Positions 40,739 through 60,411 of a DNA stretch of 64,000 nt are shown in pieces. The notes below the pieces were generated by a model. It saw nothing but the letters and a program-made list of their open reading frames with translations, made no database searches and was not told where the DNA came from. Where the stretch lies: contig JAHLLJ010000005.1 of assembly GCA_020444205.1 (NCBI GenBank), forward strand, positions 1 through 64,000, read 5' to 3'. How positions within the stretch are numbered: the stretch's first letter is position 1; every line of letters begins with the position of its first letter. Both the position numbers and the translations under genes were made by a program. The DNA comes from Deltaproteobacteria bacterium. GTDB lineage: Bacteria; Desulfobacterota; Desulfarculia; Desulfarculales; Desulfarculaceae.

Positions 40739-41827
40739 TCAATACAGGTCCTGGCGATGTTTGGTGAGCCTTACCGCCCCTTCCGGGCTGACCCAATAAG
40801 TGTCTTCCACCCTGAGGCCGCCCACGCTGCGGTCGTAGGCCGTGGTCTGCATCAGGGCTATCACCATGTTCTCCTTTAGCTCGGTGCCGCTGTGCCGTTC
40901 GATCACCGGGTGGAACTCCGACTGCCTCAACCCCACTCCGTATCCCAGATCACTGGGCAACAGGCGCTCCAGCCCCTGTGATGCGAACACCTCGCGCGCC
41001 GCCGCGTAGACCTCTTTGGCCAAGGCGCCGGGCTTGATGGCCGCCGCCGCTGATTCCTGAGCTTTGAACACCAGACGCAAGCGGTCGCGCTGCTCCGGGG
41101 TGGGCTCGCCCACAAAGGTGGTGCGGCAAAGGTCGGATGAGTAGCCGGCAACTACCGCGCCCAAGTCGATGACCACCGCCTCTCCCGGCTGCATGATCTT
41201 GGGTGAAGCTATGGGGTGGGCCAATAAAGTGCGCTCTCCAGAGGCAACGAAGGTGCTGAAGGCGGTGCGCAGGGATCCTGCCTTGCGCATTACATACTCC
41301 GCTTCGGCAGCCACTTCCAGTTCACTGACTCCGGGAGCAACGGCGGCCAAGGCGGCTTCCATGGCTTGGTCGGCCATGGCCGCAGCCGCTTTGATGTGCT
41401 CCAATTCCTGAGGTGTCTTGATGGCCCTGAGACCATCGATCACCGGAGTGATATGCACCAGCTCGGCCTGAGGAAACTCGCTGGTGAGCATCTCGTATTG
41501 GCGCGCCACCATGAAGTCCTTTTCAATGCCTATGCGTTTAGGTTCAAGACCGCCCTGTTTGCGCACCATCTTAATCATGCGCCCCACCAGGCTTTGCTCG
41601 GGGAACACATAGGTGCCTACCCGGGACAAGGCGCATTTCTCACGGGCCTCCGGGGCATCCAACCATAAAGTGCAAAAAACCGGCTCCTGCTCGGATGTCA
41701 TGAGCACCCCGGAGCAGACCGAAGCATAGGAGGAGAGATAAAAGACGTCATGGGGCTTGAGCACGAAGGCGACGTCGATATTTTGTGAATCCAACTCTTG
41801 CTGCAGGCGTTCAATGGGTGATTGCAT
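40739..41827 (-). CDS. M24-family 'pita-bread' hydrolase (Xaa-Pro peptidase/DoeA-like), metal site incomplete
   Basis: The 362-residue protein has the two-domain plan of M24B peptidases: an N-terminal creatinase-like domain (about residues 1-130) and a C-terminal pita-bread domain. Two aspartate positions are present (VVIDLGAVVAGYSSDLCRT) and the last Glu (LRVEDTYWV). The ligand His of GHG is Tyr (LGYGVGLRQSEFHP), and the third ligand Glu of the usual EPG segment is absent (MVIALMQTTAY). This is similar to metal-free members such as creatinase or ectoine hydrolase DoeA. It may not be a peptidase at all. It lies 3' of the ior operon. Confidence 0.8.
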   Translation of the reverse strand: MQSPIERLQQELDSQNIDVAFVLKPHDVFYLSSYASVCSGVLMTSEQEPVFCTLWLDAPEAREKCALSRVGTYVFPEQSLVGRMIKMVRKQGGLEPKRIGIEKDFMVARQYEMLTSEFPQAELVHITPVIDGLRAIKTPQELEHIKAAAAMADQAMEAALAAVAPGVSELEVAAEAEYVMRKAGSLRTAFSTFVASGERTLLAHPIASPKIMQPGEAVVIDLGAVVAGYSSDLCRTTFVGEPTPEQRDRLRLVFKAQESAAAAIKPGALAKEVYAAAREVFASQGLERLLPSDLGYGVGLRQSEFHPVIERHSGTELKENMVIALMQTTAYDRSVGGLRVEDTYWVSPEGAVRLTKHRQDLY

Positions 41828-41872
41828 GCTCTAGTCTCCGCCCACCATCATGGGGGCTAGTGAAAGTAAAGG

Positions 41873-41917
41873 AAAGGCCCGAGCACACCGGAGGGAGTTA
41901 CCGGTGGCCGGGCCTTT
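41873..41917 (-). terminator. Terminator of the ubiD-ior operon (bidirectional)
   Basis: AAAGGCCCG (41873-41881) and CGGGCCTTT (41909-41917) form a perfect 9-bp stem with an inner CACCGG/CCGGTG stem. A-rich and T-rich ends on both sides allow termination in either direction; its position just after iorB fits termination of the minus-strand operon. Confidence 0.75.
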
Positions 41918-41978
41918 ATTGTAACGCCATCCCCCGAAGCGGTGCCAGGGGTTGGCTGCGTGGGGTAATTTTAAAAGC

Positions 41979-42587
41979 CTAGGCCACGGTTTCGATACCC
42001 CGCTGCAAGGCCTGATAGTTGAGGTCCAGCTTACTGGGCGGGAAAGTGGAGCGCATGTCCTGCTTAACCTCGTCCTCGTTGATGGGCAGCAGCTTGGCGC
42101 CCAGCAATGCACCCAGCAGCACGATGTTGGACACGATGGGCGCGCCCAGCTCCACGGCGATATCGGTGGCCGGAGTGAAGATAGCCTTGGCGCTGAGCTC
42201 CTCGATGGCGCCGCGCAGCTTATCCTCGGTGGGATAATCGGCGCGGCCAGCCAACGCGCCCACCGGCATGGTGGTCTGGGTGTTGCTGAGAGTGACCACA
42301 TTCTCGTTGCCGAAGTTGCTGAGCAGGCGCAGGGTTTCCAGCGGCTCCAGGCTCACGATCAAATTGGCCCCGCCCTTGGGGATCAAGGGGCCATAGGTAC
42401 GCGTCTTGGAGATACGCAGGCTGGAAAACACCGAGCCGCCGCGCTGGGCCGCGCCAAAGGTCTCGCCAATGGCCAGGTAGTAGCCGTTGTTGGCCAGGAT
42501 GCGGCCGATGAGCCGGGCGATAAGGATGTTGCCCTGTCCGCCCACGCCGCAAACGATCAGATTATAGGGGTCCGTGGCAAGGCTCAT
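41979..42587 (-). CDS. iorB: Indolepyruvate:ferredoxin oxidoreductase beta subunit
   Basis: The 202-residue protein is a gamma-type subunit of 2-oxoacid:ferredoxin oxidoreductases, with the N-terminal NLIVCGVGGQGNILIARLIG and SVFSSLRIS blocks. It works with IorA to oxidise arylpyruvates (indolepyruvate, phenylpyruvate and similar) to aryl-acetyl-CoA, CO2 and reduced ferredoxin. Its ATG overlaps the iorA stop by 4 bases (ATGA). It is the last gene of a run beginning with the TRAP permease and ubiD. Confidence 0.93.
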   Translation of the reverse strand: MSLATDPYNLIVCGVGGQGNILIARLIGRILANNGYYLAIGETFGAAQRGGSVFSSLRISKTRTYGPLIPKGGANLIVSLEPLETLRLLSNFGNENVVTLSNTQTTMPVGALAGRADYPTEDKLRGAIEELSAKAIFTPATDIAVELGAPIVSNIVLLGALLGAKLLPINEDEVKQDMRSTFPPSKLDLNYQALQRGIETVA

Positions 42588-44503
42588 TTGGGCACCTCCT
42601 GTATCTCAATAGCCTTGAAGGGGCAGACCGAGGCGCATGCGCCGCAGCCAGGGCAGGCGTCCTCGCGGATGCTGGCCTTACCGGTTTCCGGGTCCTTGAG
42701 CAAGGCGGGGCAGCGGAACTTGCTGTAACAGGTGCCGCACTCTTCGCCCTTGCACTTTTCTTGATTTACCACCACCTTGTAGGGCTTGTTCTTGAGCGCC
42801 TTCATGCGCACCAGTTCGCAGGTGCGCCGCAGCACCAAGATGCGCACGCCCTCCTTCTCGGCCATCAGGCCGCGCAGGGCCTTGGTGGTGCCCCTCAGGT
42901 CAAAGGGGTCGGCCACGGTGACCGGCACGCCCAGGGCCTCGCACAGCTTGACCACGTCGATGCGCGGGGCGTCCTCGCCTATGGCGTTGTAGCCGACTCC
43001 GGCGTGGGCCTGGAAGCCGGTCATGGCCGTGGCATCGTTGTCCAGCACCACGTGGATGAGGTTGGACTGGTTGTAAATGGCGCTGACCAAACCGGGCAAA
43101 ACCGCGTGATAGAAGGTGGAGTCGCCGCAAATGCTCACCACCGGCTTGTCCCAGCCGAACTTGTGCATCTGACCCAGACCGGCGGCCAGGCCAATACTGG
43201 AGCCCATGGCGTGCAGCATGTTCATCTGGCACTTGCCCTCGGGGAACACGTCCAGGGTGTAACAACCGATGTCACCGGTCACGTACACCTCGCCGCCCTC
43301 GGCCTTTATTGCCTTGTCCAGGGCCCAGAAGCTGGCCCGGTGGGGGCAACCGGGGCACCAGGTCAGACCGCGGCTGATGAGGATGTCGTCGGTGATCTCT
43401 TTGAGCTTGGCCTGGTAGGCCTCGCTGGGGCCGTCATAGGTTTTGCCGGTGATCTTGCACAGGGCGTCCAGGGCGCGGTCGGGAGTGATCTCGCCCTCCA
43501 TGGGCACGTGGCCCGATTCCTTGCCCAAGACCTCCACCGTGGCGGACTCGGTGCCGTTGAGAGCGTCCTTGACCAGGACCTCCACCACCGGGTCCACCTC
43601 TTCCAGAATCAGGATCTGCTTGGCGTTCTTGGCGTGCTTGCGCACCAGGTCCACCGGGAAAGGCCACAGGGTGGCCAGCTTGAGCACGCCCACCTGATCC
43701 TGCAGGCCCAGCATGTCCAAGGCTTCCTGGCCACAGGAAAGGCCGTTGCCGCTGGCGATCACCACCAGCTCGGCGTCTTCAGGGCCAAAGTACTGGTTGA
43801 ACTTGGAAGCCTCGAAGACCTCCTTGATCTTGGCCAAACGCTCCAAGGCCATCACGTGATGGTCCTTGCCCAGGTAGGGGTTGACCGCCGCGTCGCAGTC
43901 GGGATGGGCCTGGCCCACCTTGGCCTCGGGCAAGGGGCCCAGCTCCACGATGCTCGATCCGTGGGAGAGCCTGGTGTAGCTGCGCAGGAACACATAGCAG
44001 CCATACTCGCGGGAGAGATCAAAGCAGTAGCGGATCATCTCCCTGGCCTCGTTGACGTTGGTGGGCTCCAACATGGGAGCATAGGCAAAGCGCGCCTGCC
44101 AACGGCTGTCGGTCTCGTCGCCGCTGGAGTGAGCATCCGGGTCATCGCAGACCACCACCACCATGGACCCGCCCTGGCCGCCCAGGCCGGTAAGGCTGCA
44201 GTGGGTAAGGAAGTCCAGGGCCACGGCCAGGCCGGCGTTCTTCATGGCTGACAGGGTGTTGAGCCCGGCCACCGCCGCCGCTCCGGCGCCCTCGCAGGCC
44301 ACCTTCTCGTTGGACGACCATTCCACGTGAAGGCCGCGCTCCTTGGCTACCCGGGAAAGGCGCTCGATGATCTCCGAAGAAGGGGTACCGGGGTAGGCCG
44401 AGGCGAAGTTTACACCCGCTTCCAGGGCGCCTCGCACCAAGGCCTCGTTACCCAGCAGAAAGACCTTCTCCGTCTCTGCCGTCTTTGATTTTTGATTGCT
44501 CAT
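42584..44503 (-). CDS. iorA: Indolepyruvate:ferredoxin oxidoreductase alpha subunit
   Basis: The 639-residue subunit has the pyrimidine-binding domain near the N-terminus (SAYPGTPSSEIIE), a TPP-binding domain (TGDIGCYTLDVFPEG, then CGDSTFYHAVLPGL) and the C-terminal ferredoxin domain. That domain carries two [4Fe-4S] sites: CKGEECGTCYSKFRCPAL, slightly irregular, and CPGCGACASVCPFKAI. It catalyses TPP-dependent oxidative decarboxylation of aromatic 2-oxo acids. The ATG at 44503 follows TGAGG. The small zinc-ribbon gene and ubiD lie directly upstream, an unusual pairing. Confidence 0.95.
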   Translation of the reverse strand: MSNQKSKTAETEKVFLLGNEALVRGALEAGVNFASAYPGTPSSEIIERLSRVAKERGLHVEWSSNEKVACEGAGAAAVAGLNTLSAMKNAGLAVALDFLTHCSLTGLGGQGGSMVVVVCDDPDAHSSGDETDSRWQARFAYAPMLEPTNVNEAREMIRYCFDLSREYGCYVFLRSYTRLSHGSSIVELGPLPEAKVGQAHPDCDAAVNPYLGKDHHVMALERLAKIKEVFEASKFNQYFGPEDAELVVIASGNGLSCGQEALDMLGLQDQVGVLKLATLWPFPVDLVRKHAKNAKQILILEEVDPVVEVLVKDALNGTESATVEVLGKESGHVPMEGEITPDRALDALCKITGKTYDGPSEAYQAKLKEITDDILISRGLTWCPGCPHRASFWALDKAIKAEGGEVYVTGDIGCYTLDVFPEGKCQMNMLHAMGSSIGLAAGLGQMHKFGWDKPVVSICGDSTFYHAVLPGLVSAIYNQSNLIHVVLDNDATAMTGFQAHAGVGYNAIGEDAPRIDVVKLCEALGVPVTVADPFDLRGTTKALRGLMAEKEGVRILVLRRTCELVRMKALKNKPYKVVVNQEKCKGEECGTCYSKFRCPALLKDPETGKASIREDACPGCGACASVCPFKAIEIQEVPK

Positions 44504-44572
44504 TTAAACCTCATTTTCCTGCTAGTCCGCTCCACCCAGGCAATGCCGTGAGCTTGTTATATTTGAACGCCG

Positions 44573-44755
44573 CTATTGGCCCCAGGTCATCTTGGAGTTT
44601 TTCTTGTCGAACTCCGCGTGACAAAAGGGGCAGTGCAGCGGAAGGCTGTCGAACTGTGGCTCGTAGAAGGAGCGGTCTATGTAAAAAAGCTGGTTGCACT
44701 CCGGGCAGGTGACCCAAACGTCCTTGGGGGTTCCCACCTTTTCCACTACTTCCAT
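44573..44755 (-). CDS. Small zinc-ribbon protein between ubiD and iorA
   Basis: The 60-residue protein has two CxxC pairs (CPECNQLFYIDR and CPFCHAEFDK), forming a zinc ribbon. It ends KKNSKMTWGQ. It is translated from ATG 44755 with GAGGGAGACAC upstream. It lies 18 bases after ubiD and 69 bases before iorA on the same strand, so it is an operon member. The function is unknown. A scaffold or redox-linked partner of one of its neighbours is possible. Confidence 0.75.
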   Translation of the reverse strand: MEVVEKVGTPKDVWVTCPECNQLFYIDRSFYEPQFDSLPLHCPFCHAEFDKKNSKMTWGQ

Positions 44756-44773
44756 GGTTGTGTCTCCCTCCTG

Positions 44774-46216
44774 CTAGTAGGAACCCGGATAGTCGTTGAC
44801 TTTGTCCAGGTCCACGTAGTCCTCCACCTGAATGGCGGAGGCCACCTCCTCGGGGGTTTTGTTGACCATCTGATAGAAACGGGGCAGCCCGTTTCCGATG
44901 GGCGGAGGCATGGTGGCGTCGATGCCGCCCCGGGTGCCGATGTTACCCGGCGAGGGCAAACTGGGGTCCAAGGGGAACACCGCCGCGCCCTTTACCGTGA
45001 CCAGGTCCTTGTCCCATTGGCTTCGGTAGGCCACCGACCAGAGCACCTCGCTCTCGTTGAACAAATCGATGTCCTCGTCCACCACGATCACGTGCTTCAG
45101 GCGGCTGTCGCAGGGCAAAGTGGCCATGATGGCTTCCTTGCCGATGCCCGGCCGGGTTTTCTTGACCTGCACGTACACGTGGTTGCGCCGCCCGGAGATG
45201 GGCACGTACACATTCATCAGCTCGGGCAACACGCTTTTCACCACGCTGTAGATGCGCGCTTCCATGGGGAAGTTGCCCAGAAGCACCAGATGGTCGGCCA
45301 GGCCCACCCCGATGCCGTGGTAGATGGCGTCCTTGCGGTAGGTGACGCACTTGACGTCGATCACGTTGCTGGGGCGCTGGGGGCCGATGTAGCCGGGGTA
45401 TTCGCCAAAGGGCCCCTCGGCCTCGAACACCTCCTTGGGCACGTAGCCCTCGATGACCATCTCCGCGTCGGCCGGGACCATCAGGTCGCTGCCAAAGGTC
45501 TGGCTGGGCACCAGGCGAAGCGACTCTCCCAGCACACCGCCCACCGAAGGATAGTGGCTCTCGGGGTAACCCAGGCGAGACTGGGCCCCGGCCACTGCCG
45601 CCGGATGGTGGCCGATCCACACGGCCACGGGCATGTCCTCTCCCCTGTCCCACCAGGCGCGCAGGTTGTTCATGGTGTGGCTGGTCACCGCCGGCCACAG
45701 GCCGGTACGCCGAGGACTTTTTACCCAGATGCGCTGCAAACAAGTATTGTCAACGCCGCTGTCGGGGTCGGTGGTGGTCACAAAACCGGTACCGATGTAG
45801 GGGCCGGGGTCCATGTAGTTGTGAGTGAGGATGGGGAACTTGAGCAGGTTGACTTCCTCGCCGGTTTCCACAACCTGTTTCACCGGGGCTTGGTCGACAG
45901 ACACCACCACCGGGTCGATTTTGTTGGAAACCTTGGCGGCGTACTCCATGGCCACCCGGCGGGGATCGATGTCCAGGATTTCGGCGCAAAGGTCGCGGCT
46001 GGCGGTTAGGTTGGTTACCACCGGGAAGGCGCTCTCAGTGCCATCGTCCAGGATGGGGCGCTCTACGATGATCACCGGGTACTTCTTCATGGCGTCCAGC
46101 TTGCGCTGCAAGGCGGTGATCTCGTAAGCAGCCTTTAGCGGTTCTTTTATGCGCAAAACCGCCTCGGGCTTTTCCCGCTCCAGTTGCTCCAGGTAGGTTC
46201 TCAAGTCTTGAGGCAT
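44774..46216 (-). CDS. UbiD-family prenylated-FMN-dependent decarboxylase
   Basis: The 480-residue protein has the UbiD landmarks. MDPGPYIGTGFVTTTDPD and NTCLQRIWVKSPRRTG supply cofactor and substrate-site residues. EMVIEGYVP and EGPFGEYPGYIGP supply the conserved glutamates. It reversibly (de)carboxylates aromatic or alpha,beta-unsaturated acids using prenylated FMN made by a UbiX, which is absent here. Being in one run with an aryl-pyruvate oxidoreductase and a TRAP permease argues for a catabolic role, not ubiquinone synthesis. I therefore leave the gene unnamed. Confidence 0.92.
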   Translation of the reverse strand: MPQDLRTYLEQLEREKPEAVLRIKEPLKAAYEITALQRKLDAMKKYPVIIVERPILDDGTESAFPVVTNLTASRDLCAEILDIDPRRVAMEYAAKVSNKIDPVVVSVDQAPVKQVVETGEEVNLLKFPILTHNYMDPGPYIGTGFVTTTDPDSGVDNTCLQRIWVKSPRRTGLWPAVTSHTMNNLRAWWDRGEDMPVAVWIGHHPAAVAGAQSRLGYPESHYPSVGGVLGESLRLVPSQTFGSDLMVPADAEMVIEGYVPKEVFEAEGPFGEYPGYIGPQRPSNVIDVKCVTYRKDAIYHGIGVGLADHLVLLGNFPMEARIYSVVKSVLPELMNVYVPISGRRNHVYVQVKKTRPGIGKEAIMATLPCDSRLKHVIVVDEDIDLFNESEVLWSVAYRSQWDKDLVTVKGAAVFPLDPSLPSPGNIGTRGGIDATMPPPIGNGLPRFYQMVNKTPEEVASAIQVEDYVDLDKVNDYPGSY

Positions 46217-46285
46217 TTATCTCACGTCCTTTCTGGGGCGTGACAGGGGCGCTCCATGACGGAGCGGGCCTTCCGGTTGCCGAAT

Positions 46286-48157
46286 CTAGAGCGCGACCGC
46301 GGCTTCACTTTTTTGCTTACGGGTCATGGTTATAACCACCGCCAAAAGGGCGAAGCCCACGATATTGGTAATCACCGGGTACACGGTGAGCCACAACACT
46401 ATGGCGGCCGCTGCGAACAACAGGCGCTCAGTGGCGTTGAGCCGCCGTGAGAAGATGCCCATGATGGCCGCGGTGAAGGCCATGACGATCAGCGCTGCCT
46501 TGAAGATGGCGAAGGCTACCTCGTACCACTCGCCGAAAAGCATGAGCGGCGGATAGGTAGCCAGCAAAAACGGTATCAAGTACAGGGTCAGGCCCATGGT
46601 GCAGGCCTTGATGCCCACGGTGCTGGAGTTGGCGTCGGCTATACCCGCCCCGGCATAGGCGGCCAGAGCCACCGGCGGGGTCACCATGGAAAGGTTGGCG
46701 AAGTAGAAACCAAAGAAGTGGGCGGTGAGCACCGGGATGCCGCCCTTGATAAGGGCTGGAATGGCCAGGATGGCCACGGTGATGTAAGCCGCGCTGGTGG
46801 GCATGCCCATGCCCAGTACCAGGCATATGAGCGAGGTGATTAAAAGCAGCCACAGGATGTTGCTGCCCGCCACGCTCAGAATAATCTCTGTGAACTTGAG
46901 CCCCAGGCCGGTAAGGGTGAGCACACCCACTATGATGCCGGCAATGGCACAGGGCACGGCCACGGCGATGGAGCTCTTGGCGCCGTCTTCCAAGGCCTTT
47001 ACAAAGATGCCCAGGTCCTTCCATTCCTTGCGGGCCACGATGGGGATCACCGAGACGAAGAAGGAGGCCAGGATGGCCATGGTGGCCGACAAGGTGATGG
47101 AATAGCCAGAGCCCAAGTAATAGATGATCACCACAATGGGCAGGAACATGTATCCCTTGGATACCATCAGCTTGAGGATGGGCTTGCGCTCGTCCTGCAT
47201 GGTCCCCAGCCCCGTGGCGATGGACTCGAAGTGCACTGCCGAGTAGACCACGATGTAATACAGCACCGAGGGGATGATGGCCGCCACCGCGATGGTCCAA
47301 TAGGGGATGCGGGTCAGCTCGGCCATGATAAAGGCCGCTGCACCCATAATGGGCGGCACCAGCTGGCTGCCCGTGGAGGCCAGGGCCTCGATGGCTCCGG
47401 CAGCCACCGGGGTATAGCCCGCCCGTTTCATCATGGGGATGGTGAAGGTGCCCGAGGTGGATACGTTGGCCACCGCGCTGCCGCTGATGGTACCCAGCAG
47501 GCTGGAGCTGATCACCGCCACCTTGCCCGGCCCGCCGCGCATGCCACCGGCCACGGACACGGCAAGGTCGTTATAAAACTCGCCCAGGCGGCCATATTTG
47601 AGGAAGGCCCCAAATAGCACGAACAAGAACACATAGGTAGTGGACACCCTCAGCGGTATGCCGAAGATGCCCTCCTGGGTGAGCACCATGAACTCGGTAA
47701 AGCTGTCCAGATTGACCGAGCTGTGCCCCAGGGAGCCGGGCACCAAAAAGCCCAGGAAAGCGTAGGCAATGGCGATCACCCCAAGAATGGAAAGGCCCCA
47801 GCCCATCAGGCGGCGGCCGCCCTCCAGGACCAGGAAGATAATGGCGATACAGGCGGCGATGTCAGAGACGAAAACCTCGTCCACAAAACGGATACGCTCC
47901 ACGATGCGCGGGTAGCTGTAAAGGAAGTAAATCCCCACCGCCACCGAGAGCAGCACCAGGAAATAGTCGGCCACGCCCTTTTTATTCAGGAAGCCCGGGC
48001 CCGGCCTCAGCAAAAAGGTCAGAACCAGGGCAAAGGTGATATGCAACATTTCCACCTGGAGGATATCCAGGGCAAAGGTGAAGGCGCAGTAGAGCTGCAA
48101 CAAGGACCACAATATAGCGGTGCCGGCGATGAGTCTCTTTTTAACCTGGGGGTCCAA
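46286..48157 (-). CDS. TRAP transporter fused permease (4TM/12TM, DctQM type)
   Basis: The 623-residue protein has about 17 hydrophobic helices. The N-terminal four form a DctQ-like small permease, and the rest a DctM-like large permease with characteristic GTISGSAVANVSTSGTFTIP and MGMPTSAAYITVAILAIPAL segments. Fused permeases of this kind normally pair with a TAXI-type periplasmic binding protein; none is in the window. It imports an organic acid using the sodium gradient. The TTG at 48157 was chosen (GGGG 9 bases upstream); a GTG at 48226 would add 23 residues. It lies upstream of ubiD with a 69-base gap and probably begins the operon. Confidence 0.9.
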   Translation of the reverse strand: MDPQVKKRLIAGTAILWSLLQLYCAFTFALDILQVEMLHITFALVLTFLLRPGPGFLNKKGVADYFLVLLSVAVGIYFLYSYPRIVERIRFVDEVFVSDIAACIAIIFLVLEGGRRLMGWGLSILGVIAIAYAFLGFLVPGSLGHSSVNLDSFTEFMVLTQEGIFGIPLRVSTTYVFLFVLFGAFLKYGRLGEFYNDLAVSVAGGMRGGPGKVAVISSSLLGTISGSAVANVSTSGTFTIPMMKRAGYTPVAAGAIEALASTGSQLVPPIMGAAAFIMAELTRIPYWTIAVAAIIPSVLYYIVVYSAVHFESIATGLGTMQDERKPILKLMVSKGYMFLPIVVIIYYLGSGYSITLSATMAILASFFVSVIPIVARKEWKDLGIFVKALEDGAKSSIAVAVPCAIAGIIVGVLTLTGLGLKFTEIILSVAGSNILWLLLITSLICLVLGMGMPTSAAYITVAILAIPALIKGGIPVLTAHFFGFYFANLSMVTPPVALAAYAGAGIADANSSTVGIKACTMGLTLYLIPFLLATYPPLMLFGEWYEVAFAIFKAALIVMAFTAAIMGIFSRRLNATERLLFAAAAIVLWLTVYPVITNIVGFALLAVVITMTRKQKSEAAVAL

Positions 48158-48287
48158 GTCCTTATCCCCTTTAACTGCCACCGGTGCCGGCCTTGACGTG
48201 CCGCAGCCACCGAAGGCTTCAATCACAGCATGTGCCAGAGGCTTTAGGGGCAGATCATTGGTGTCTTCTGGCCTCTAATATTTGAAA

Positions 48288-48337: not shown

Positions 48338-48680
48338 CTGGGGGGCATGGTTAGCTACATCCACCTCGCGGTAGTGTCGGCCTTGTCCGCGTCCTGAGCG
48401 TTCACGGGCTCGGCTGGGAAAAAACAATGTTGGCCAGGCCAACGCTGCAAGTTTTTCTTTTCCCAAGTTTCGCATTCCCGGTTCCACATTCTGATAAACC
48501 AGGGTGAGATTCCACGACCCAATGGTATGGTTCATTCCTTTGATTCGAGGCGCTGTACTTTTCCAATTCCTTGCGCCTAGTTGCCGAAGTTGAGAACCAA
48601 ATACATTGGAGCCGGCTCCTTGGGTCAACCGCATAGCGCATGATGAAGTTTCTTATTGTGAAATACACTATGCATGTTAT

Positions 48681-48710
48681 AAATTACTAGGCACCAGCGA
48701 CCCCTGTCAA
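48681..48710 (-). promoter_or_regulatory. Possible promoter for the TRAP-ubiD-ior operon
   Basis: On the minus strand, TTGACA (48710-48705) is followed after 18 bases by TAATTT (48686-48681), a weak -10. TATAAC lies 5 bases further downstream at a less suitable spacing. This would give a leader of about 450-500 bases containing the 12-bp hairpin. Confidence 0.35.
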
Positions 48711-49058
48711 GTTTTTTTAAAAGCAAAATGGCGGGCCCGTAAGGGATGTCTGGTCAGGGTCCTATTCGAACGCTAGAATATTGTCTGAGCCGATTGGTAC
48801 CCGATGCTGGGTTTGCAAAAGAAAACAAAGTCCGCCAAGCGCCTGCGGAGATGGTCTTGGCAAGCGGTACGAGGACTGTTTTTTCTTATATATTACTGTT
48901 AGCGGCGAGACGTTTCCTGCAACGTTGTGCAGCCGACCCAACCTGGAAAGGATATGGCCTTGGCGCCTTTAACCCTTAAATCTTCTAAATCGTGGGGGCG
49001 ATGCATGTTTTTCAAGCCAGAGCTACCAATTGGCAACCGTTTATCGCAGTTTTTTCCC

Positions 49059-49113: not shown

Positions 49114-49923
49114 ATGAAAAATAACGGCAACGGCGACAACGGGAAATACCGCATCAAGGTGCTTCAAAAAGCCTTCCGGCTTTTGGAGCTGTTCCACGAC
49201 AAGGTTGAGGAGCTCTCGGCCACCGAGATCACCGAAAAGCTGCAATACAACAAGACCACGGTGTTCAGGATCATCTCCAACCTTGAAGAAGAAGGTTACC
49301 TGGAAAAGAACCCGGAGACGGGCAAGTACCGCCTGGGTATGAAGCTGTTTTTTCTAGGCAGCTTGGTAAAACCCTATCGCCACCTCAAGAGCACGGCCAA
49401 GCCCCTGTTGCGTAGCCTGAACCAGCAAACCGGTGAGACGGTTCATCTGGCGGTGTTACACAAGAACCAGGCCCTGTATCTGGACAAAATCGAGAGCAAT
49501 CACACTGTGAGGGTGGTCGTCTCCCAGATCGGGCAAAAGCTGCCCGCCCATTGCTCCGGAGTAGGTAAGGTCCTTCTGGCCCACTTGCCCGAAGACGATG
49601 TCAAGGGAGCGGTTGAGGAAACCGGGCTGCCCGCCTTTACCCAGAACACCATCACCACTTGGAACCAGTTAAGGACTGAGTTGGAGAAGGTGCGCTCTCA
49701 GGGCTTTGCCCAAGACAACGAAGAAATCGAAATGGGTCTCAAGTGCGTGGCCGCGCCGGTATTTCTCGATAGCCAGGTAGTGGCCGCTCTGAGCGTTTCG
49801 GTTCCCAAAGACCGTTTTGAAAAAACTCCGCACGACATTACTCGCATGGTGATGCAAGCTGCCGACGAGCTAAGCGGGGTATTGCAAAATTCCATAGTAA
49901 ATCTCAGGCCCACGGCGGGTTGA
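49114..49923 (+). CDS. IclR-family transcriptional regulator
   Basis: The 269-residue regulator has an N-terminal winged helix (LSATEITEKLQYNKTTVFRI, residues 33-52) and the IclR effector domain starting with GMKLFFLGSLV, including DKIESNHTVRVV and LPAHCSGVGKVLLA. IclR proteins bind small organic acids. Located between the TRAP-ubiD-ior run and the plus-strand ferredoxin-LarA-like-AOR-Liv run, it is the obvious candidate regulator of one or both. It is followed by the ferredoxin gene after 54 bases, so it may itself be in that operon. Confidence 0.93.
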   Translation: MKNNGNGDNGKYRIKVLQKAFRLLELFHDKVEELSATEITEKLQYNKTTVFRIISNLEEEGYLEKNPETGKYRLGMKLFFLGSLVKPYRHLKSTAKPLLRSLNQQTGETVHLAVLHKNQALYLDKIESNHTVRVVVSQIGQKLPAHCSGVGKVLLAHLPEDDVKGAVEETGLPAFTQNTITTWNQLRTELEKVRSQGFAQDNEEIEMGLKCVAAPVFLDSQVVAALSVSVPKDRFEKTPHDITRMVMQAADELSGVLQNSIVNLRPTAG

Positions 49924-49977: not shown

Positions 49978-50598
49978 ATGAAGACGGTTAGGGTTCAGGC
50001 CCAGGTGGACATGGATCTCTGCCAGGGTTGCAAAACTTGCCAAATGGTCTGCCCTGTCTACGCCATTGAGGTGTCGCGGGTGGACGGCAAACCCCAAGTC
50101 AAAATTGATCATGATATCTGTGTCGGTTGCTGGAACTGTGAACAGCGCTGTCCCGACCACGCCATTTCCATGGCTCCTTGCGAGCCCTTCGACCTGGCCA
50201 CCGACGTATCCAAGTTCGACTACGACGAGATACGCGCGCTATGCCGCAAGGCCCATTTCCATCCCAAGCAGATCGTGTGCTACTGCACCGCTACCCGGGC
50301 CGAGGAGCTGGCCGCCGCCATCTTGGACGGCGCCTCCAACCCCGCCGAGTTGGTGCGCGCCAGCGGCGCGGGCTCTGGTTGCGGCATCGAGTGCAACCAG
50401 CCCATCCTGCGCTTCCTGGAAGCAGCGGGCAAGACCTATGAGCGGCCCAAGCAGAGCTATCAGTGGTACGGCCGCACAGCCACCGTCTGGGACGTGAGCG
50501 ACAAGGTCAAGAAAGAGCACCCCGGCTTCCGCTTTGACAGCGACCGCGAGCTGTTAAACAGCGTGGTGGAAGCTCCCATCGACAACGCGAAATCCTAA
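49978..50598 (+). CDS. Ferredoxin/BFD-like iron-sulfur protein
   Basis: The 206-residue protein has two [4Fe-4S] motifs (CQGCKTCQMVCP, then CVGCWNCEQRCP) at residues 15-57. A BFD-like [2Fe-2S] domain follows, with CYC ... SGCGIEC (residues about 100-140). The last 60 residues are unassigned. It is likely an electron carrier for the aldehyde oxidoreductase encoded 4 kb downstream in the same run. Translation starts at ATG 49978 after GGAGAAGGAA. It is 17 bases upstream of the LarA-like gene. Confidence 0.85.
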   Translation: MKTVRVQAQVDMDLCQGCKTCQMVCPVYAIEVSRVDGKPQVKIDHDICVGCWNCEQRCPDHAISMAPCEPFDLATDVSKFDYDEIRALCRKAHFHPKQIVCYCTATRAEELAAAILDGASNPAELVRASGAGSGCGIECNQPILRFLEAAGKTYERPKQSYQWYGRTATVWDVSDKVKKEHPGFRFDSDRELLNSVVEAPIDNAKS

Positions 50599-50615: not shown

Positions 50616-52064
50616 ATGTATAACAAGGCACTCCCCCCTGCCCCCACCCGGGTCTCCCAATACGGCGTTGACCCCAAATGTGTCGTTAAGCGGGGCGCTG
50701 AACTGAAAGATATCGTGGGCGTTCCGCTCAACGATTTGGTCACCGGCCTTCCGCCGGTCATCTTCCCCAGCGGCGACAACGACGTGGCCGTTATCCGCAA
50801 AGAGACCGAGGCGGCCCTGGCCAAGGTGGACATGTCCAAGATCACCCCGGGCAGCACCGTGAATATTTTGGCCTCTCACCACGGCTTCACCTTTTTCGGC
50901 GGCCAGCCTTATGCCGAGATGCTCAGGACCATCAAAGACGTGGTGGAGCAGCGCACCGGGTGCAAGGAAGTGCGTCTGCGCGCCGGCCTGGGCATGCGCT
51001 TCCGCGAGACCGAGGAATACATCAAGGCCCACGGCCTGGACGAGTACTTTAAAGGCAAGGCCCTGGGCATCGCCCCCATCGACGCGGGCATCCCTATCGA
51101 GACCGAGCTGGGCACCCTGTTCGGCCTGCGCAAGGCCTACGACGCCGACTTCATCATCCACGCCCACAACAGCGACGTGCGCGAGGTGCACTTCCACCGC
51201 CAAGTGGACCGGGCGGTCAAGCCTTTTGGCATGAGCTACGCCCGCTGTGAAACTCGCTCCACCTACCACATGAACCTGGGACCCCGGGCGGCCAACTTCG
51301 TGGCCCGCTCCATCTTTGAGTCCGAGTTCGTGCAAAGCAAGTTCGCCTTTGCCTGCTTCCTCACCATGTCTCCGGCCGGAGCCACCGGCGTGGACGCCGA
51401 CGCCGACCTCTACGCCCTCAACGACCGGGTGACCGTGGCCGGCATGCGCGACTATGGCAAGATCATGACCCTGTTCGGGGCCATCGACGAGTGCATCGTG
51501 GTTTTGGACTTCCCCTGCCCGGTGCCCTACGTGTTTGCCTGCGGGGTCATCTACGCCAACATGACCTGCGCCAACCTGGATGTGTTCGACCTTGACTACC
51601 CGCTGCCGCCCTACACCTGGTACACCGAGACCATGTACGACGACAACGGTAAGCCCCTGATCCCCGAGGTCCCGCCGGTCAACCCGGCCATTAAGACCGT
51701 GGTGCATAACTATGCATGGATCGGCTACCCCTCGGTGTTCTTCGCCGAGAAGAGCCCCACCATCGTGGTGGGTAAGGAGCAGGCCGAGTTGTTCGACCGC
51801 GACCCCATGAACCTCAACTACATGAAGCACGCCCTGTTGGCCGACAACCTGGACGGGGCCATGGAGTTCGCCTATCACACCACGGGCACCGACAAGGTGA
51901 TCCTGTTCGACGGCGCGGCCGGCGGCCTCAACGTCAGCAACGCCTTGGCTGAGCATCTCTACAAGGTCGCCCCCGGCGTGATGGAGAGGGTTGAACAAAA
52001 GCTGTTGCCCAAGTGGTTGGCTCAACGCAACGTGGACCCATCGATGTTGGACCAAGTGGCATAA
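50616..52064 (+). CDS. Remote LarA-like (nickel-pincer racemase family, DUF2088) protein, tentative
   Basis: I do not recognise this 482-residue protein with certainty. Its domain order resembles LarA. STVNILASHHGFTFFGG matches the N-terminal Rossmann strand. The block ADFIIHAHNSDVREVHFHRQ, followed by VDRAVKPFG, lines up with the LarA segment carrying His174 and the cofactor-tethering Lys184. A later His (TYHMNLGPRAANF) lines up with His200. The C-terminal LDGAMEFAYHTTGTDKVILF resembles the LarA C-terminal strand-helix. The catalytic His108 position appears absent, so lactate racemisation is not expected. It starts at ATG 50616 and is followed by a QPRT-like gene with a 1-base overlap. Confidence 0.5.
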   Translation: MYNKALPPAPTRVSQYGVDPKCVVKRGAELKDIVGVPLNDLVTGLPPVIFPSGDNDVAVIRKETEAALAKVDMSKITPGSTVNILASHHGFTFFGGQPYAEMLRTIKDVVEQRTGCKEVRLRAGLGMRFRETEEYIKAHGLDEYFKGKALGIAPIDAGIPIETELGTLFGLRKAYDADFIIHAHNSDVREVHFHRQVDRAVKPFGMSYARCETRSTYHMNLGPRAANFVARSIFESEFVQSKFAFACFLTMSPAGATGVDADADLYALNDRVTVAGMRDYGKIMTLFGAIDECIVVLDFPCPVPYVFACGVIYANMTCANLDVFDLDYPLPPYTWYTETMYDDNGKPLIPEVPPVNPAIKTVVHNYAWIGYPSVFFAEKSPTIVVGKEQAELFDRDPMNLNYMKHALLADNLDGAMEFAYHTTGTDKVILFDGAAGGLNVSNALAEHLYKVAPGVMERVEQKLLPKWLAQRNVDPSMLDQVA

Positions 52065-52900
52065 TGAACCTTTGTGCGCCCGCAACCTCCGTGAACTGGT
52101 GGCCGCCGGATATTCGGCAACGGATATTCGACGGTCACCAGTGTCGTTTGGTGCGCGCGCATATCACCGCTGAAAAGGCTGGAGTGCTCAGCGGCATCAA
52201 GCGTGCCGCCGAGGTGGCGGCCAACACCAGGGTGAGCTTCGACTCATCCCTGGCTGATGGTCAGGAGGTGGCCGCCGGGCAGGTAGTCGCCACCCTGACC
52301 GGAACCCCTTTTTACATCGTCAGAGCCGAAGACCTCCTCTTGGGAGAGTTGTCCAAGACCTCGGGCATAGCCACCCAGGCCCGCCAAGCCCTTGAAGGGG
52401 CCAACGGCCACTTCATCGTGGTATGCGGAGCCTTTAAAAAAATGCCCCACGCCATCAAGGACCAGATCCGCCAGGCCGTAGCCCACGGCGGATTGCGCAT
52501 GCGCATGGCCCCCCACCCTTTTGTGTACGTGGACAAAAACTACGTGCGCATCTTGGGCGGCGTGGCTAAGGCCATGCAGGCGGTGGCTCCCCTGGAGCGC
52601 CCGGTGGTCATCCAGTTGCGCGGCGAGTTGGAGCCTATCGCACAGGAGGCGATCACCGCCGCCCGTATGGGCGCGGCCACCCTGATGGTGGACACCGGCG
52701 AGTTGGACGACTTGGAAGCCGTCTCCACCGCCCTTCGCGGCGAGGGCCTGCGCGAAAAGGTCAAACTGGCCTTTGCGGGCAACCTTAGCCTGGAAGACTT
52801 GCCGGGGCTTTCCGGGCACGACGTGGACGCGGTGGATATCGGCTACAGCGTGGTGGATGCCCCGTGCCTGCCCATGCGCTTTGACGTGATCGAGGACTAA
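52064..52900 (+). CDS. QPRT-like (quinolinate phosphoribosyltransferase/ModD-type) protein
   Basis: The 278-residue protein matches the plan of nicotinate-nucleotide pyrophosphorylase/ModD: an N-terminal alpha/beta sandwich and a TIM-like barrel. The blocks LLGELSKTSGIATQARQALEGA, LMVDTGELDDL and DAVDIGYSVVDAPCLPM can be seen. Classical QPRT uses quinolinate plus PRPP to make nicotinate mononucleotide; the arginine- and lysine-rich quinolinate site cannot be verified by eye. Its ATG overlaps the preceding stop as TAATG, so it is translationally coupled to the LarA-like gene. Its presence may relate to a nicotinate-derived cofactor, but that is conjecture. Confidence 0.6.
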   Translation: MNLCAPATSVNWWPPDIRQRIFDGHQCRLVRAHITAEKAGVLSGIKRAAEVAANTRVSFDSSLADGQEVAAGQVVATLTGTPFYIVRAEDLLLGELSKTSGIATQARQALEGANGHFIVVCGAFKKMPHAIKDQIRQAVAHGGLRMRMAPHPFVYVDKNYVRILGGVAKAMQAVAPLERPVVIQLRGELEPIAQEAITAARMGAATLMVDTGELDDLEAVSTALRGEGLREKVKLAFAGNLSLEDLPGLSGHDVDAVDIGYSVVDAPCLPMRFDVIED

Positions 52901-52910: not shown

Positions 52911-53804
52911 ATGCAGTACCGTCTTCTTGAAAAGACCGAAATCTGGATAACTCCCCTGCGCCTGCACGAGGCTGATTTGGCCGCCTGTGCCCAAGCGGCG
53001 GGCGAAGTCTTGGGCCTCACCCCCGAGCAGATAATGGTCACCGACGCTCAAACCGAGCATCTGGTATTCGACGTGCTCACTCCCACTGTGGAGGCCAGGC
53101 AGATCGTGGCCCGCAAGGGCGCCTTGCTGGATGCTCTGAGCCGGGTGCCGGGCGTGGAGATCAACGAAAACACCGAAGTTCATTCAGACGGCATCCTGGG
53201 CATGATCAGCCTGGGGACGGACGAGGGGCGCGAAGTTCTGGAGCGCACCGAAAAGCTCCAGGCCCAGCTAAAAGAACGCCTGGCCCGCAGGGCCAAGGTG
53301 TTTCCCACCGGCACCGAGGTAATCAACGGCCAGATCAAGGACACCAACACCCCATTCCTGGTGCAGGAACTGGAGACCATGGGCTTCACCGTGGCCACCT
53401 CTCCTCCCCTGCCCGACCAGCTCAACCGCATCGCCAACTCCCTGCGCAACGCGGTGGAAGAAGGATACGGCCTGGTCATCACCACCGGAGGGGTGGGGGC
53501 CGAGGGCAAGGATCAGACCGTGGAAGCTCTCTTGGCCCTGGACCCCGAAGCGGCCACACCTTACGTGCTCAAGTTTACCAAGGGCCAAGGCCGCCACGCC
53601 AAGGACGGCGTGCGCCTGGGGGTGGGCCGCTTGGGCCAATGCATCATGGTCACCCTACCTGGGCCCAATGATGAGGTGCGTTTGACCTGGCCGGTGCTCA
53701 GCCAAGGGCTTAGCGAAAACTGGCCCAAGGAGCGCCTGGCCGCTCACCTGGCCGATGCCCTACGCCAAAAGTTTCTGGATCATCAACCGCATCACGCCCA
53801 CTGA
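52911..53804 (+). CDS. MoCF/CinA-like molybdopterin-binding domain protein
   Basis: The 297-residue protein has a C-terminal MoCF_biosynth domain (KVFPTGTEVINGQIKDTNTP, then LVITTGGVGAEGKDQT) of the type found in CinA and MoeA. The N-terminal region of about 120 residues is unassigned (beginning MQYRLLEKTEIWITPLRL). CinA-type domains bind molybdopterin or pyridine-nucleotide-like substrates. Adjacent genes are QPRT-like (10 bases upstream) and an MhpD-like hydratase downstream, and a pterin-dependent aldehyde oxidoreductase lies 1 kb further. So a pterin-linked or nucleotide-linked role is plausible. Confidence 0.75.
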   Translation: MQYRLLEKTEIWITPLRLHEADLAACAQAAGEVLGLTPEQIMVTDAQTEHLVFDVLTPTVEARQIVARKGALLDALSRVPGVEINENTEVHSDGILGMISLGTDEGREVLERTEKLQAQLKERLARRAKVFPTGTEVINGQIKDTNTPFLVQELETMGFTVATSPPLPDQLNRIANSLRNAVEEGYGLVITTGGVGAEGKDQTVEALLALDPEAATPYVLKFTKGQGRHAKDGVRLGVGRLGQCIMVTLPGPNDEVRLTWPVLSQGLSENWPKERLAAHLADALRQKFLDHQPHHAH

Positions 53805-53832: not shown

Positions 53833-54618
53833 ATGAGTTTGAGCCAAGAACAACTATCCCAAGCCGCTCAGAGTCTTTTCCAGGCGTCTCGGGACCTGAA
53901 GCCCATTGCCGCGCTTACCGAAACCTTCCCGGGCATCACCGTGGAAGAGGCCTATCAAATTCAGACCACCAACATAGACGCCCGCATAAAGGCGGGGGCC
54001 CGCGTGGTGGGTAAAAAGATCGGCCTGACCAGCCCGGCCATGCAGCAGATGTTGGGGGTTGGCGAGCCTGACTACGGCATGCTCCTGGACGACATGCTGC
54101 TCTACCAGGGCGTGGACTTTGATACCACCATCTTGTTGCAGCCCCGTATCGAAGGCGAGATCGCCTTTGTCATGAGCCAGGACATCATGGGCCCGGTGAC
54201 CCCGGCGGAAGTGGCCATGGCCACCGCCGGAGTTACCCCCGCCCTGGAGATCATCGACAGCCGGGTCAAGGATTGGAAGATCAAAATTCAGGACACCGTG
54301 GCAGACAACGCTTCAGCGGCCGCCTTTGTCATCGGAGCCACCCTGGTGCCCCTGGGTTCCATGGACCTGCGCCATGTGGGCTTCGTGCTCACCAAGAACG
54401 GCCAGTTGGCCGGCACCGGCGCCGGGGCTGCGGTATTGGGCAGCCCGATTCAGTCGGTGGCCTGGCTCATCAACAAGATGGGCGAAATGGGCGTGGGCGT
54501 AAAAGCCGGCGAGATCATCCTTTCCGGCGCCGCTTCCGCCGCGGTGGATGTGGCCCCTGGCGATTCCATTCACCTGGTGGTGGATCGTTTGGGCGAGGTA
54601 GGTTGCCGTTTCGCCTAG
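53833..54618 (+). CDS. 2-keto-4-pentenoate hydratase/4-oxalocrotonate decarboxylase-like (MhpD family)
   Basis: The 261-residue protein starts at ATG 53833 with GGAGG 7 bases upstream. It has the MhpD-type blocks KIGLTSPAMQQMLGV, metal-binding IEGEIAFVMSQD and ALEIIDSRVKDW. The family hydrates 2-hydroxypentadienoate to 4-hydroxy-2-oxovalerate or decarboxylates 4-oxalocrotonate in meta-cleavage pathways. No ring-cleaving dioxygenase is seen, so the substrate here is open. The frame is open upstream to 53755, overlapping the preceding gene, but the RBS decides for 53833. Confidence 0.85.
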   Translation: MSLSQEQLSQAAQSLFQASRDLKPIAALTETFPGITVEEAYQIQTTNIDARIKAGARVVGKKIGLTSPAMQQMLGVGEPDYGMLLDDMLLYQGVDFDTTILLQPRIEGEIAFVMSQDIMGPVTPAEVAMATAGVTPALEIIDSRVKDWKIKIQDTVADNASAAAFVIGATLVPLGSMDLRHVGFVLTKNGQLAGTGAGAAVLGSPIQSVAWLINKMGEMGVGVKAGEIILSGAASAAVDVAPGDSIHLVVDRLGEVGCRFA

Positions 54619-56616: not shown

Positions 56617-56750
56617 AAATTAGTTAGCGGGATAACTGGGGGGACAAATAGTGAGTGAGCGCTCGCCTGATTACAGAAAACAAAGGTGGGAGCTCCACTA
56701 CGGACATGGAGACATGTCTATTCACCATCTACATCGAGGGAGAGGAATTC

Positions 56751-57983
56751 ATGTTCAAAGTAGGAGCAAAAATCACATCCGCCCTGTTTAGCATTTGCCT
56801 CTTGATTGCCGGTTTGTTGCTGCTGGGCCCGGCATCGGCCCAGGCCGGCGCGCCTGACGAAATTCTTATTGGAACCACGGTTAGCGAGTCCGGCTACATG
56901 GCCGAAGACAGCATTCCGTCTTTTAAGGGTCGCAAGTTGGCCGTGGATCTAGTGAACAAGGACGGAGGCCTGTTCCTGTCCAAGTTCAACAAAAAGGTGC
57001 CCGTGAAGCTGGTCTACTACGATGACAAGAGCGAGCCCTCGGCCGCGGTGCGCAGCTTCCAGCGCCTGGCCAACATGGACAAGGTCGACTTCTTCCTGTC
57101 CGCCCACGGCTCCACCCTGTCCTTCGCGGTGGCCAAGATCGCCGAAACCTCCAAGATTCCCATGACCATCTACGCTGGTTACGCCAACAAGATTTGGACC
57201 CAGGGCTACAAGTACATCTTCAACGTTGGCCCCACCGCCTCCCAGTACTGCGAGGCTTTCGTGAACCTGGTCAAGAGCCTTCCGGACAAGCCCAAGGTGG
57301 GCCTGATCCACGAAGACGGCCTGTGGGCCAAGGCGGTTTCCGGCGCCATGGCCAAGATGGGCAAGGCAGCAGGCGTGCAGATCGACGTTGTGGACGTCTA
57401 CCCTTCCGACAGCAAGGACGTGAGCTCCTCGGTCAACAAGGTCATCGCCGAGGGCTACCCCATCATCGGCACCGTCAGCCACGTGCGCAACGACCTGCTG
57501 GTTACCCGCACCATCCTGGAGATGGGCGTGACAAACAAGTTCAGGATGATCTACGTGCAGACCGCCACCGGCTACCCCTCTTTTGCCCAGAAGTTCAAGC
57601 CTGAGCAGATTCAGGGCATCGTGGGCACCAGCGTGTGGGCCTCCAGCATCAAGACCTACTTCAACTCCGAGTTCCAGAAGGCCTACAAAAAGGCCTACGG
57701 CGAGGAGCCCAGCTGGGTTTCGGCCATCGGCTTTGCCGGTGCCCAGGCCATGCTGGAAGCCATCAAGGAAGCCGGCACCAACGACCGCGAGGCGGTACGT
57801 CAGGCTTTCGTGAGCAAGGACATCAAGACAATCATCGGCGACCTGAAGTTCAAAAAAGACGGCACCTCCAACGGCAGCGCCCTGGTTTGCCCCCAGATGC
57901 AGGGCGGCATCCCCGAGGTGGTCTACCCGGCCGATTTCGCCACCAAGAAGCTGATCTACCCCCAACCGACCTACAAGAAATAA
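56751..57983 (+). CDS. Branched-chain-amino-acid-type ABC transporter periplasmic binding protein
   Basis: The 410-residue protein has a signal peptide (FSICLLIAGLLLLGPASAQA) followed by a periplasmic-binding-protein fold I domain (ILIGTTVSESGYM, then KRKLAV-like LVNKDGGLFLSK and SAHGSTLSFAVAKIAE). It belongs to the LivJ/LivK-like group, whose members bind amino acids, amides or aromatic acids. The ATG at 56751 with GGGAGAGG upstream was chosen over an earlier start at 56655. A strong hairpin follows, before the ATPase genes. It probably binds an aromatic or branched acid, in line with its neighbours. Confidence 0.92.
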   Translation: MFKVGAKITSALFSICLLIAGLLLLGPASAQAGAPDEILIGTTVSESGYMAEDSIPSFKGRKLAVDLVNKDGGLFLSKFNKKVPVKLVYYDDKSEPSAAVRSFQRLANMDKVDFFLSAHGSTLSFAVAKIAETSKIPMTIYAGYANKIWTQGYKYIFNVGPTASQYCEAFVNLVKSLPDKPKVGLIHEDGLWAKAVSGAMAKMGKAAGVQIDVVDVYPSDSKDVSSSVNKVIAEGYPIIGTVSHVRNDLLVTRTILEMGVTNKFRMIYVQTATGYPSFAQKFKPEQIQGIVGTSVWASSIKTYFNSEFQKAYKKAYGEEPSWVSAIGFAGAQAMLEAIKEAGTNDREAVRQAFVSKDIKTIIGDLKFKKDGTSNGSALVCPQMQGGIPEVVYPADFATKKLIYPQPTYKK

Positions 57984-57991
57984 GGCTCCCT

Positions 57992-58028
57992 AGGGGGAGG
58001 AGGTCATTCCTCCTCCCCCTTAATCTTT
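57992..58028 (+). terminator. Attenuator-type hairpin between binding-protein and livG genes
   Basis: A perfect 11-bp stem (GGGGGAGGAGG, 57993-58003, with CCTCCTCCCCC, 58009-58019; a further A-T pair at the base) has loop TCATT and is followed by TTAATCTTTCT. It could reduce transcription into the ATPase and permease genes and keep the binding protein in excess. Confidence 0.7.
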
Positions 58029-58048
58029 CTCCCAAGGGATTTATCGCC

Positions 58049-58777: not shown

Positions 58778-58779
58778 AA

Positions 58780-59490: not shown

Positions 59491-59509
59491 GGAAAGGGAG
59501 AGCGAACGC

Positions 59510-60376: not shown

Positions 60377-60411
60377 GCTCAGGCTAGAGAGAAACAGGCG
60401 AGGAAACCAAT

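Follow-up and report, generated by a model that had tools for sequence, protein, structure and literature searches.

A UbiD and IorAB operon of a Desulfarculaceae bacterium is a composite of two gene modules that may form an anaerobic route for aromatic acids

Introduction

Why does a gene for a UbiD decarboxylase, an enzyme whose family uses aromatic acids as substrates, share an operon with genes for a two-subunit oxidoreductase of the IorAB family? The question is raised by 64,000 nucleotides (nt) of DNA from a Deltaproteobacteria bacterium of the family Desulfarculaceae (assembly GCA_020444205.1, contig JAHLLJ010000005.1, positions 1 to 64,000), hereafter referred to as the window. The first-pass annotation of this DNA could name no pathway that uses both enzymes, and the portion of the literature covered by our search likewise describes neither a UbiD-IorAB operon nor an anaerobic furoate pathway. 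Here, we compare the locus with its relatives. The five genes form a real operon, yet one that is a composite of two older gene sets. Module A is TRAP-UbiD-zinc ribbon. Module B consists of a plus-strand run, FdBFD-X482-QPRT-MoCF-DmpE, and of the minus-strand genes IorA-IorB-M24; X482 is an orphan protein of 482 residues. Together, the two modules may degrade furan-like or other aromatic acids anaerobically, by a route that has not been reported. We give a catabolic cluster of this composite kind, working by decarboxylation, ring reduction, hydration and oxidation, a probability of roughly 0.4.

Results

The operon and its two modules

The minus-strand series, in which all five genes are present, is given here from its upstream end, together with the terminator and the gene beyond it.

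46286..48226, minus strand: TRAP transporter fused permease (TIGR02123, 603.6 bits, cut-off 320.65; homologs precede UbiD in module A)
44774..46216, minus strand: UbiD-family decarboxylase, probable catalytic subunit (TIGR00148, 287.9 bits, cut-off 244.85; PF01977, 185.6 bits, cut-off 23.3)
44573..44755, minus strand: zinc ribbon of 60 residues, probable VdcD-like accessory subunit of UbiD (C17, C20, C42, C45; adjoins UbiD in relatives)
42584..44503, minus strand: IorA-like 2-oxoacid:ferredoxin oxidoreductase, alpha subunit, with C-terminal 4Fe-4S domains (TIGR03336, 569 bits, below 650.9)
41979..42587, minus strand: IorB-like 2-oxoacid:ferredoxin oxidoreductase, beta subunit (TIGR03334, 157 bits, below 205.8; PF01558, 101 bits)
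41873..41917, both strands: bidirectional intrinsic terminator (inverted repeat, hairpin either way)
40739..41827, minus strand: M24/creatinase-like protein (PF00557, 176 bits; synteny with the X482 module)

The spaces between the genes are 69 nt (TRAP/UbiD), 18 nt (UbiD/zinc ribbon) and 69 nt (zinc ribbon/IorA), and IorA and IorB overlap by 4 nt. The longest open reading frame (ORF) of the TRAP permease starts at 48226 (GTG), with an alternative TTG start at 48157. The hairpin at 41873-41917 has folding energies of -35.4 and -33.8 kcal/mol on the two strands (z -2.5 and -2.2). One operon of five same-strand genes and a strong bidirectional terminator had both been proposed in the first-pass annotation; gene calls and spacing bear out the former, and the folding of both strands the latter. 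The M24 gene, 151 nt from IorB, does lie just past the terminator, as had been noted; it is not an outsider, however, since it is conserved with the X482 module.

The plus-strand part of module B comprises the following genes.

49978..50598, plus strand: FdBFD, electron carrier with two 4Fe-4S motifs and a BFD-like 2Fe-2S domain (PF00037, PF04324)
50616..52064, plus strand: X482, orphan 482-residue protein, proposed catalytic partner of FdBFD (no Pfam or NCBIfam family; family alignment)
52121..52900, plus strand: QPRT-like phosphoribosyltransferase (PF02749, PF01729; ORF open from 52013)
52911..53804, plus strand: MoCF (molybdopterin-binding-fold) domain protein (PF00994, 78 bits)
53833..54618, plus strand: DmpE-like FAH-fold hydratase (top match TIGR03220, 2-oxopent-4-enoate hydratase, 281 bits, cut-off 408.8)

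Among 118 genomes searched, UbiD orthologs at least 77% identical to that of the window occur in five members of the genus, its own genome included, and two further genomes have them at the loci L003 and L005; L001, L002 and L004 were counted as the same genomes as G002, G005 and G003, respectively. All five other copies of module A in the genus (L084-L088, on contig C319 of the same genome and in G002, G003, G005 and G006; stretches of 19-20 kb) lack IorAB. Their order is nitroreductase-(ATC hydrolase)-TAXI-TRAP-UbiD-zinc ribbon, to which some add CdsB-like, MFS, UbiX and GntR genes. At L084, L086, L087 and L088, genes for a nitroreductase, an ATC-hydrolase-family protein and an SDH_alpha (CdsB-like) protein resembling cysteine desulfidases precede TAXI-TRAP-UbiD. 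G005 has an IorA paralog of 56% identity about 13 kb from its module-A UbiD, on the same strand. Module B forms a single run in G002 and G003, IclR-FdBFD-X482-QPRT-MoCF-DmpE-IorA-IorB-M24, which holds no UbiD and, in G002, has an added ABC transporter; the IorAB proteins of these two genomes (65-66% identical) are the nearest to those of the window outside its sister genomes. The order in G447, which belongs to another family, is QPRT-MoCF-DmpE-FdBFD-X482-BenE permease-M24-IorA. TRAP-UbiD-zinc ribbon is a portable unit, and IorAB and M24 belong with the plus-strand run. The order UbiD-IorAB is therefore not conserved, module A standing alone in 5/5 other copies of the genus. The random neighbourhood that the first-pass annotation would have concluded from this does not follow, since IorAB and M24 are conserved with module B and X482 tracks UbiD.

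X482 accompanies the UbiD of module A

X482 is present in 7/7 genomes that have a UbiD at least 77% identical to that of the window. It is found in none of three congeners without this UbiD, nor in any of 16 genomes whose UbiDs are at most 42% identical. The Fisher test gives p values of 1.5e-6 overall and 0.018 within the genus, uncorrected for kinship; the genomes are not independent, and many are incomplete. With X482 in 7/7 genomes that carry this UbiD versus 0/19 controls, the link between UbiD and module B is not random. Physical linkage recurs elsewhere. Inside the module of G276 (L132), an HmfF-like UbiD gene (454 bits to PtHmfF) shares 4 nt with an M24 gene, and a UbiD gene of G137 (L136) lies between two FdBFD-X482 pairs. 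The third case, in G468, is split over contigs: one of them (L187) begins inside a zinc-ribbon gene that is followed by MFS-FdBFD-X482, and the UbiD gene (L003) stops 25 nt short of where a different contig breaks off, which suggests that UbiD, zinc ribbon and FdBFD-X482 form one run.

The locus of the window is shared by the sister genomes G005 and G006, with intact genes for IorA (93% and 90% identical, respectively), IorB, M24, IclR (95% and 91%) and the series from FdBFD to DmpE. Of the genes that separate IorA from IclR, G005 retains only the N-terminus of TRAP with a stop, and window position 44605 is joined to 48027. The remnants at this place in G006 are the end of the zinc-ribbon gene, UbiD residues 1 to 88 and a C-terminal scrap of TRAP. 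Both genomes still carry module A at another place (L086, L087). These observations are most simply explained by a common ancestor that carried the five-gene operon, from which the module-A genes were then lost through two different deletions.

These deletions bear on the alternative that TRAP-UbiD-zinc ribbon merely landed between IorA and IclR, so that a promoter is shared but a pathway is not. Such hitch-hiking would account for the different decay of the insert in G005 and G006, for the separate positions of the modules in G002 and G003, and for the presence of a second copy of UbiD in the genome of the window. We consider it unlikely in view of the co-occurrence of UbiD and X482 (7/7 versus 0/19), of their separate linkage in G276, G137 and probably G468, and of the low ratio of non-synonymous to synonymous substitution (dN/dS) of the window UbiD and TRAP, 0.18-0.23. 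Across UbiD, TRAP, IorA and IorB of the window the ratio is 0.11-0.23 and there are no internal stops; all four genes therefore look selected.

X482 and its electron carrier

X482 has no match in Pfam or NCBIfam. Its members, 40-95% identical to the window protein, come from at least 8 genera, and the family occurs in 11 of 395 genomes spread over the phylum; none was found in viral contigs or in the plasmids searched. K202, E212-T213 and H218 are invariant in 21 aligned sequences. FdBFD lies immediately upstream of X482 at 24/24 loci (21/21 and 3/3 in two sets), and G141 has FdBFD fused to a Pyr_redox_2/Fer4_20 flavoprotein, from which we take FdBFD to be an electron carrier. A 2-oxoacid:ferredoxin oxidoreductase is encoded in the X482 stretch at 8/24 loci, six of the IorA type and two of a three-subunit type (G276 and G469, in the latter directly before FdBFD). 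Taken together, the synteny with FdBFD, the fusion in G141 and the oxidoreductase genes make X482 the probable catalytic partner of an iron-sulfur electron carrier, with a probable link to the oxidation of 2-oxo acids. QPRT and MoCF, both of which occur in the X482 stretch at 13/21 loci, look like cofactor genes; QPRT-like is not NadC by the cut-off (TIGR00078, 92 bits versus 198). At one locus (L185, G469:C71), genes that by eye resemble molybdenum hydroxylases lie upstream of the three-subunit oxidoreductase and FdBFD-X482-QPRT.

The single-sequence AlphaFold model of X482 has a mean confidence score (pLDDT) of 38. LarA was tried as a homolog and rejected: hhalign gave probabilities of 3% and 1.2%, and the profile search of PDB sequences and Pfam found no match either. 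The value of 1.2% was the best of 19 families compared, but was aligned at another place. LarC, searched for as a sign of a nickel-pincer cofactor, does not discriminate, being present in 13/15 X482 genomes and in 9/9 others searched. It is very improbable, in our judgement, that X482 would be a highly divergent LarA-type enzyme with a pyridine-nucleotide (nickel-pincer-like) cofactor made or adapted by QPRT and MoCF, using electrons from FdBFD to open a heteroaromatic ring, for instance that of 2-furoate, by reduction. If true, this reaction would lie at the heart of a new anaerobic pathway for furan carboxylates, one that works without oxygen or CoA activation of the ring acid.

IorAB and M24

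The IorAB proteins have the TPP, PFOR core, POR and ferredoxin domains, with PF02775, PF17147, PF01855, PF12837 and PF01558 above their cut-offs. They can be described as members of the 2-oxoacid:ferredoxin oxidoreductase superfamily. Oxidation of aryl-pyruvates had been assigned to them in the first-pass annotation; both subunits fall below the curated indolepyruvate cut-offs, and this specificity therefore does not follow. The wider idea behind it, that an aromatic acid is decarboxylated and an aryl-pyruvate oxidized by a canonical indolepyruvate oxidoreductase, agrees with the family match of IorAB and with what is known of UbiD substrates. It is extremely improbable given those scores and given that the conserved partners are FdBFD, X482, QPRT, MoCF, DmpE and M24. 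Relatives of IorA at least 60% identical are confined to X482 modules.

Other IorAB paralogs of the genus (L153, L154, L155, L159) adjoin genes for LarA (Lar_N), transporters, FAD-linked oxidases or UxaA-like dehydratases, the last label being assigned by eye. These neighbourhoods point to 2-hydroxy/2-oxo acid routes and appear to follow a recurrent layout that leads from 2-hydroxy acids to acyl-CoA. By analogy with the LarA and FAD-linked oxidase genes in these operons, X482 and FdBFD could be oxidative, supplying IorAB with a 2-oxo acid made from a 2-hydroxy acid, with ferredoxin accepting electrons from both steps. Two successive ferredoxin-reducing steps would require another electron sink, however, and neither UbiD nor the DmpE-like hydratase would have a clear place, so we regard an oxidative X482 as decidedly unlikely.

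The usual metal site of M24 proteins is formed by two Asp, one His and two Glu residues. In 7/7 homologs of the window protein, Tyr occupies the position of the His, and the middle Glu position has no Glu. Since the usual His is missing in all seven, the M24 protein is probably not a normal peptidase.

The decarboxylase of module A

Of the proteins with solved structures, PtHmfF (6h6v) is the best match to the window UbiD (phmmer, 229.8 bits). The stretches QRIWV, EMVIEG and GPFGEYPG start at residues 161, 252 and 268; their R and E residues, which align with those of 6h6v, are presumably the E-R-E triad. Where HmfF has SREH, the window protein has LADH, and its group is a separate branch that is 32-35% identical to the HmfF type of G276. 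No close sequence relation to PtHmfF was found.

The zinc ribbon has the motif C17xxC20, followed after 22 residues by C42xxC45. The same spacing is seen in ShVdcD (C3, C6, C28, C31), and VdcD is reported to be a zinc ribbon that the UbiD protein VdcC strictly requires for activity (PMC8379154). The short gene beside UbiD probably encodes a subunit of the enzyme. A motif scan of 30 of 74 UbiD loci gave a match in 5; it missed L001, at which tblastn shows the gene, and L003, where the contig stops 25 nt past the UbiD match. At L006 (a Myxococcota draft) and L009 (a Telmatospirillum draft), a zinc-ribbon gene lies beside a more distant UbiD (40%); the arrangement is wider than the UbiD group of the window.

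Neither a TAXI receptor nor UbiX was found within the window, and the fused permease is thus without a nearby cognate receptor. The second TRAP-UbiD-zinc ribbon unit of the genome, on contig C319, is preceded by TAXI and accompanied by UbiX (TIGR00421, 245 bits, cut-off 108.9), so that the genome does encode the UbiX expected for prenylated flavin mononucleotide (prFMN).

Proposed pathway

We infer the reactions, the role of the zinc ribbon and the direction of electron flow from knowledge of the protein families. Module A would import a carboxylated aromatic or heteroaromatic acid and decarboxylate it by a two-part, VdcCD-like prFMN enzyme. FdBFD would pass electrons to X482, which would reduce and open the ring. 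Enzymes of the DmpE type convert a 2-hydroxydienoate to a 4-hydroxy-2-oxo acid, and the DmpE-like hydratase would add water to the 2-hydroxydienoate that results from ring opening. IorAB would then decarboxylate the 2-oxo acid oxidatively to an acyl-CoA and return electrons to ferredoxin, so that the route would be redox-neutral. QPRT, MoCF and M24 have no firm role in this scheme.

A furan(di)carboxylate fits the stoichiometry. Furan-2,5-dicarboxylate (FDCA), a bioplastic monomer, would give 2-furoate (C5H4O3), and the addition of 2[H] would give 2-hydroxypenta-2,4-dienoate (C5H6O3), the substrate of the DmpE type. Hydration would produce 4-hydroxy-2-oxopentanoate, which IorAB could convert to 3-hydroxybutyryl-CoA, with ferredoxin reduced again. 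HmfF as the best solved relative of UbiD and 2-oxopent-4-enoate hydratase as the top match of the DmpE-like protein support the scheme. Among specific substrates we favour a furan, though as a guess: by our estimate, furan as the actual substrate is quite doubtful.

The same two modules could act on another substrate, with X482 reducing a (di)carboxylate of pyrrole, pyridine or benzene, or some other unsaturated acid. The separate branch of the window UbiD (32-35% from the HmfF type of G276), the BenE-type benzoate permease that adjoins X482 in G447, and the varied transporters and downstream enzymes at X482 loci speak for such a substrate. On the other side, the C5 chemistry of the top DmpE match suits furoate without extra steps, and G276 has its HmfF-like enzyme in the same run as the module; a non-furan substrate is rather unlikely in our view.

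Several observations weigh against the composite pathway. UbiD, TRAP and the zinc ribbon were lost from the locus in 2/2 sister genomes that keep module B, and an intact UbiD lies in the X482 stretch at only 3/21 loci. Ten X482 genomes have no detected UbiD of this group: in eight the best UbiDs are 27-32% identical, and in G141 and G324 no UbiD was found at the search threshold used. X482 therefore does not need this UbiD, although most genomes are incomplete drafts, in which absences are soft. X482 loci such as L134, L135, L137, L174 and L175, among others, lack DmpE, M24 and IorAB, and genes for acyl-CoA ligase and MaoC are present at some loci; more than one pathway is thus served by X482. 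With 230 bits to HmfF, versus 454 for the UbiD of G276, and with LADH in place of SREH, the window UbiD is a distant relative whose specificity for FDCA is doubtful. The IorAB, DmpE-like and QPRT-like proteins are all below the equivalog cut-offs, and no fold or cofactor can be assigned to X482, the proposed ring reductase.

If the pathway is correct, the X482 family would be a candidate ring reductase, tied to an electron carrier by synteny and to a decarboxylase by co-occurrence, and strict anaerobes would have a concrete route for the use of furan or similar carboxylates.

Regulatory region and neighbouring genes

The remaining features of the locus lie between the two runs and downstream of DmpE.

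48638..48728, no strand: intergenic stretch, candidate promoter/operator region (kept in G005 and G006 despite decay of flanking genes)
49114..49923, plus strand: IclR-family regulator (PF01614, PF09339; divergent, between the two runs)
54760..56616, plus strand: aldehyde:ferredoxin oxidoreductase (AFOR) family (PF01314, PF02730; 253-residue piece in G005, no match in G006)
56655..61395, plus strand: branched-chain-type ABC transporter, with substrate-binding protein, LivG, LivF, LivH and LivM (Pfam; absent here in G005 and G006)

Common control had been proposed from the place of IclR between the runs, and it agrees with the finding that the runs belong together and that IclR is kept at 91-95% identity in G005 and G006. 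The tree paths of the window IclR are 0.61 to that of module A in G002 and 0.97 to that of module A at L003, versus 1.77 to that of module B in G002, with weak support; they suggest that this IclR descends from module A. Neither the IclR nor the TRAP tree has a starred branch. The intergenic stretch 48638..48728 is matched by blastn at 81% over 91 nt in G006, and lies almost wholly within a 72% match in G005. A sigma-70 scan gave 4 sites against a shuffle mean of 4.0, which is no excess, and no Rfam family was found in 40500-54000. Upstream of TRAP, at 48288-48337, an inverted repeat with perfectly matching 12-nt arms encloses a loop of 26 nt and has no Rfam match.

After IclR, the plus-strand order is FdBFD, X482, QPRT, MoCF, DmpE, AFOR, the Liv-type ABC transporter, Fe-ADH and a LacI-like gene (the last assigned by eye). 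The block of AFOR, Liv ABC transporter and Fe-ADH (54760-62575) is variable, being absent in G006 and represented in G005 by the AFOR piece alone.

Comparison with known systems

The vanillate decarboxylase VdcCD resembles module A in that its UbiD gene is directly followed by a protein of about 60 residues with two CXXC pairs 22 residues apart. The likeness of the zinc ribbon to VdcD rests on this Cys spacing; the window UbiD reaches 244.6 bits on the VdcC model, whose cut-off is 650, and the window has no UbiX. HmfF (PDB 6h6v), which is reported to act on furan dicarboxylic acid (PMC8988006), is the top match among solved structures both for the window UbiD (230 bits) and for the module UbiD of G276 (454 bits), but the window UbiD belongs to a distinct branch and has a zinc-ribbon partner. 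The window pair shares with indolepyruvate:ferredoxin oxidoreductase the TPP, PFOR core and ferredoxin domains and the POR-type small subunit; it differs in falling below both curated cut-offs and in being conserved with the X482 module.

LarA nickel-pincer racemases are encoded beside IorAB paralogs of the genus, and the spacing of K202, E212-T213 and H218 in X482 equals that of K, ET and H in the aligned LarA, although X482 has no significant profile match and no Pfam match. The 'Magic' benzene cluster of Desulfobacterota was also considered and is not the same system: the part of its description seen names no UbiD, QPRT or indolepyruvate oxidoreductase (PMC13101534). With the lower meta-cleavage pathway, the proposed route would share the hydration of a 2-hydroxydienoate by a DmpE-like enzyme, but it would have no oxygenase and would deliver the 2-oxo acid to IorAB instead of an aldolase.

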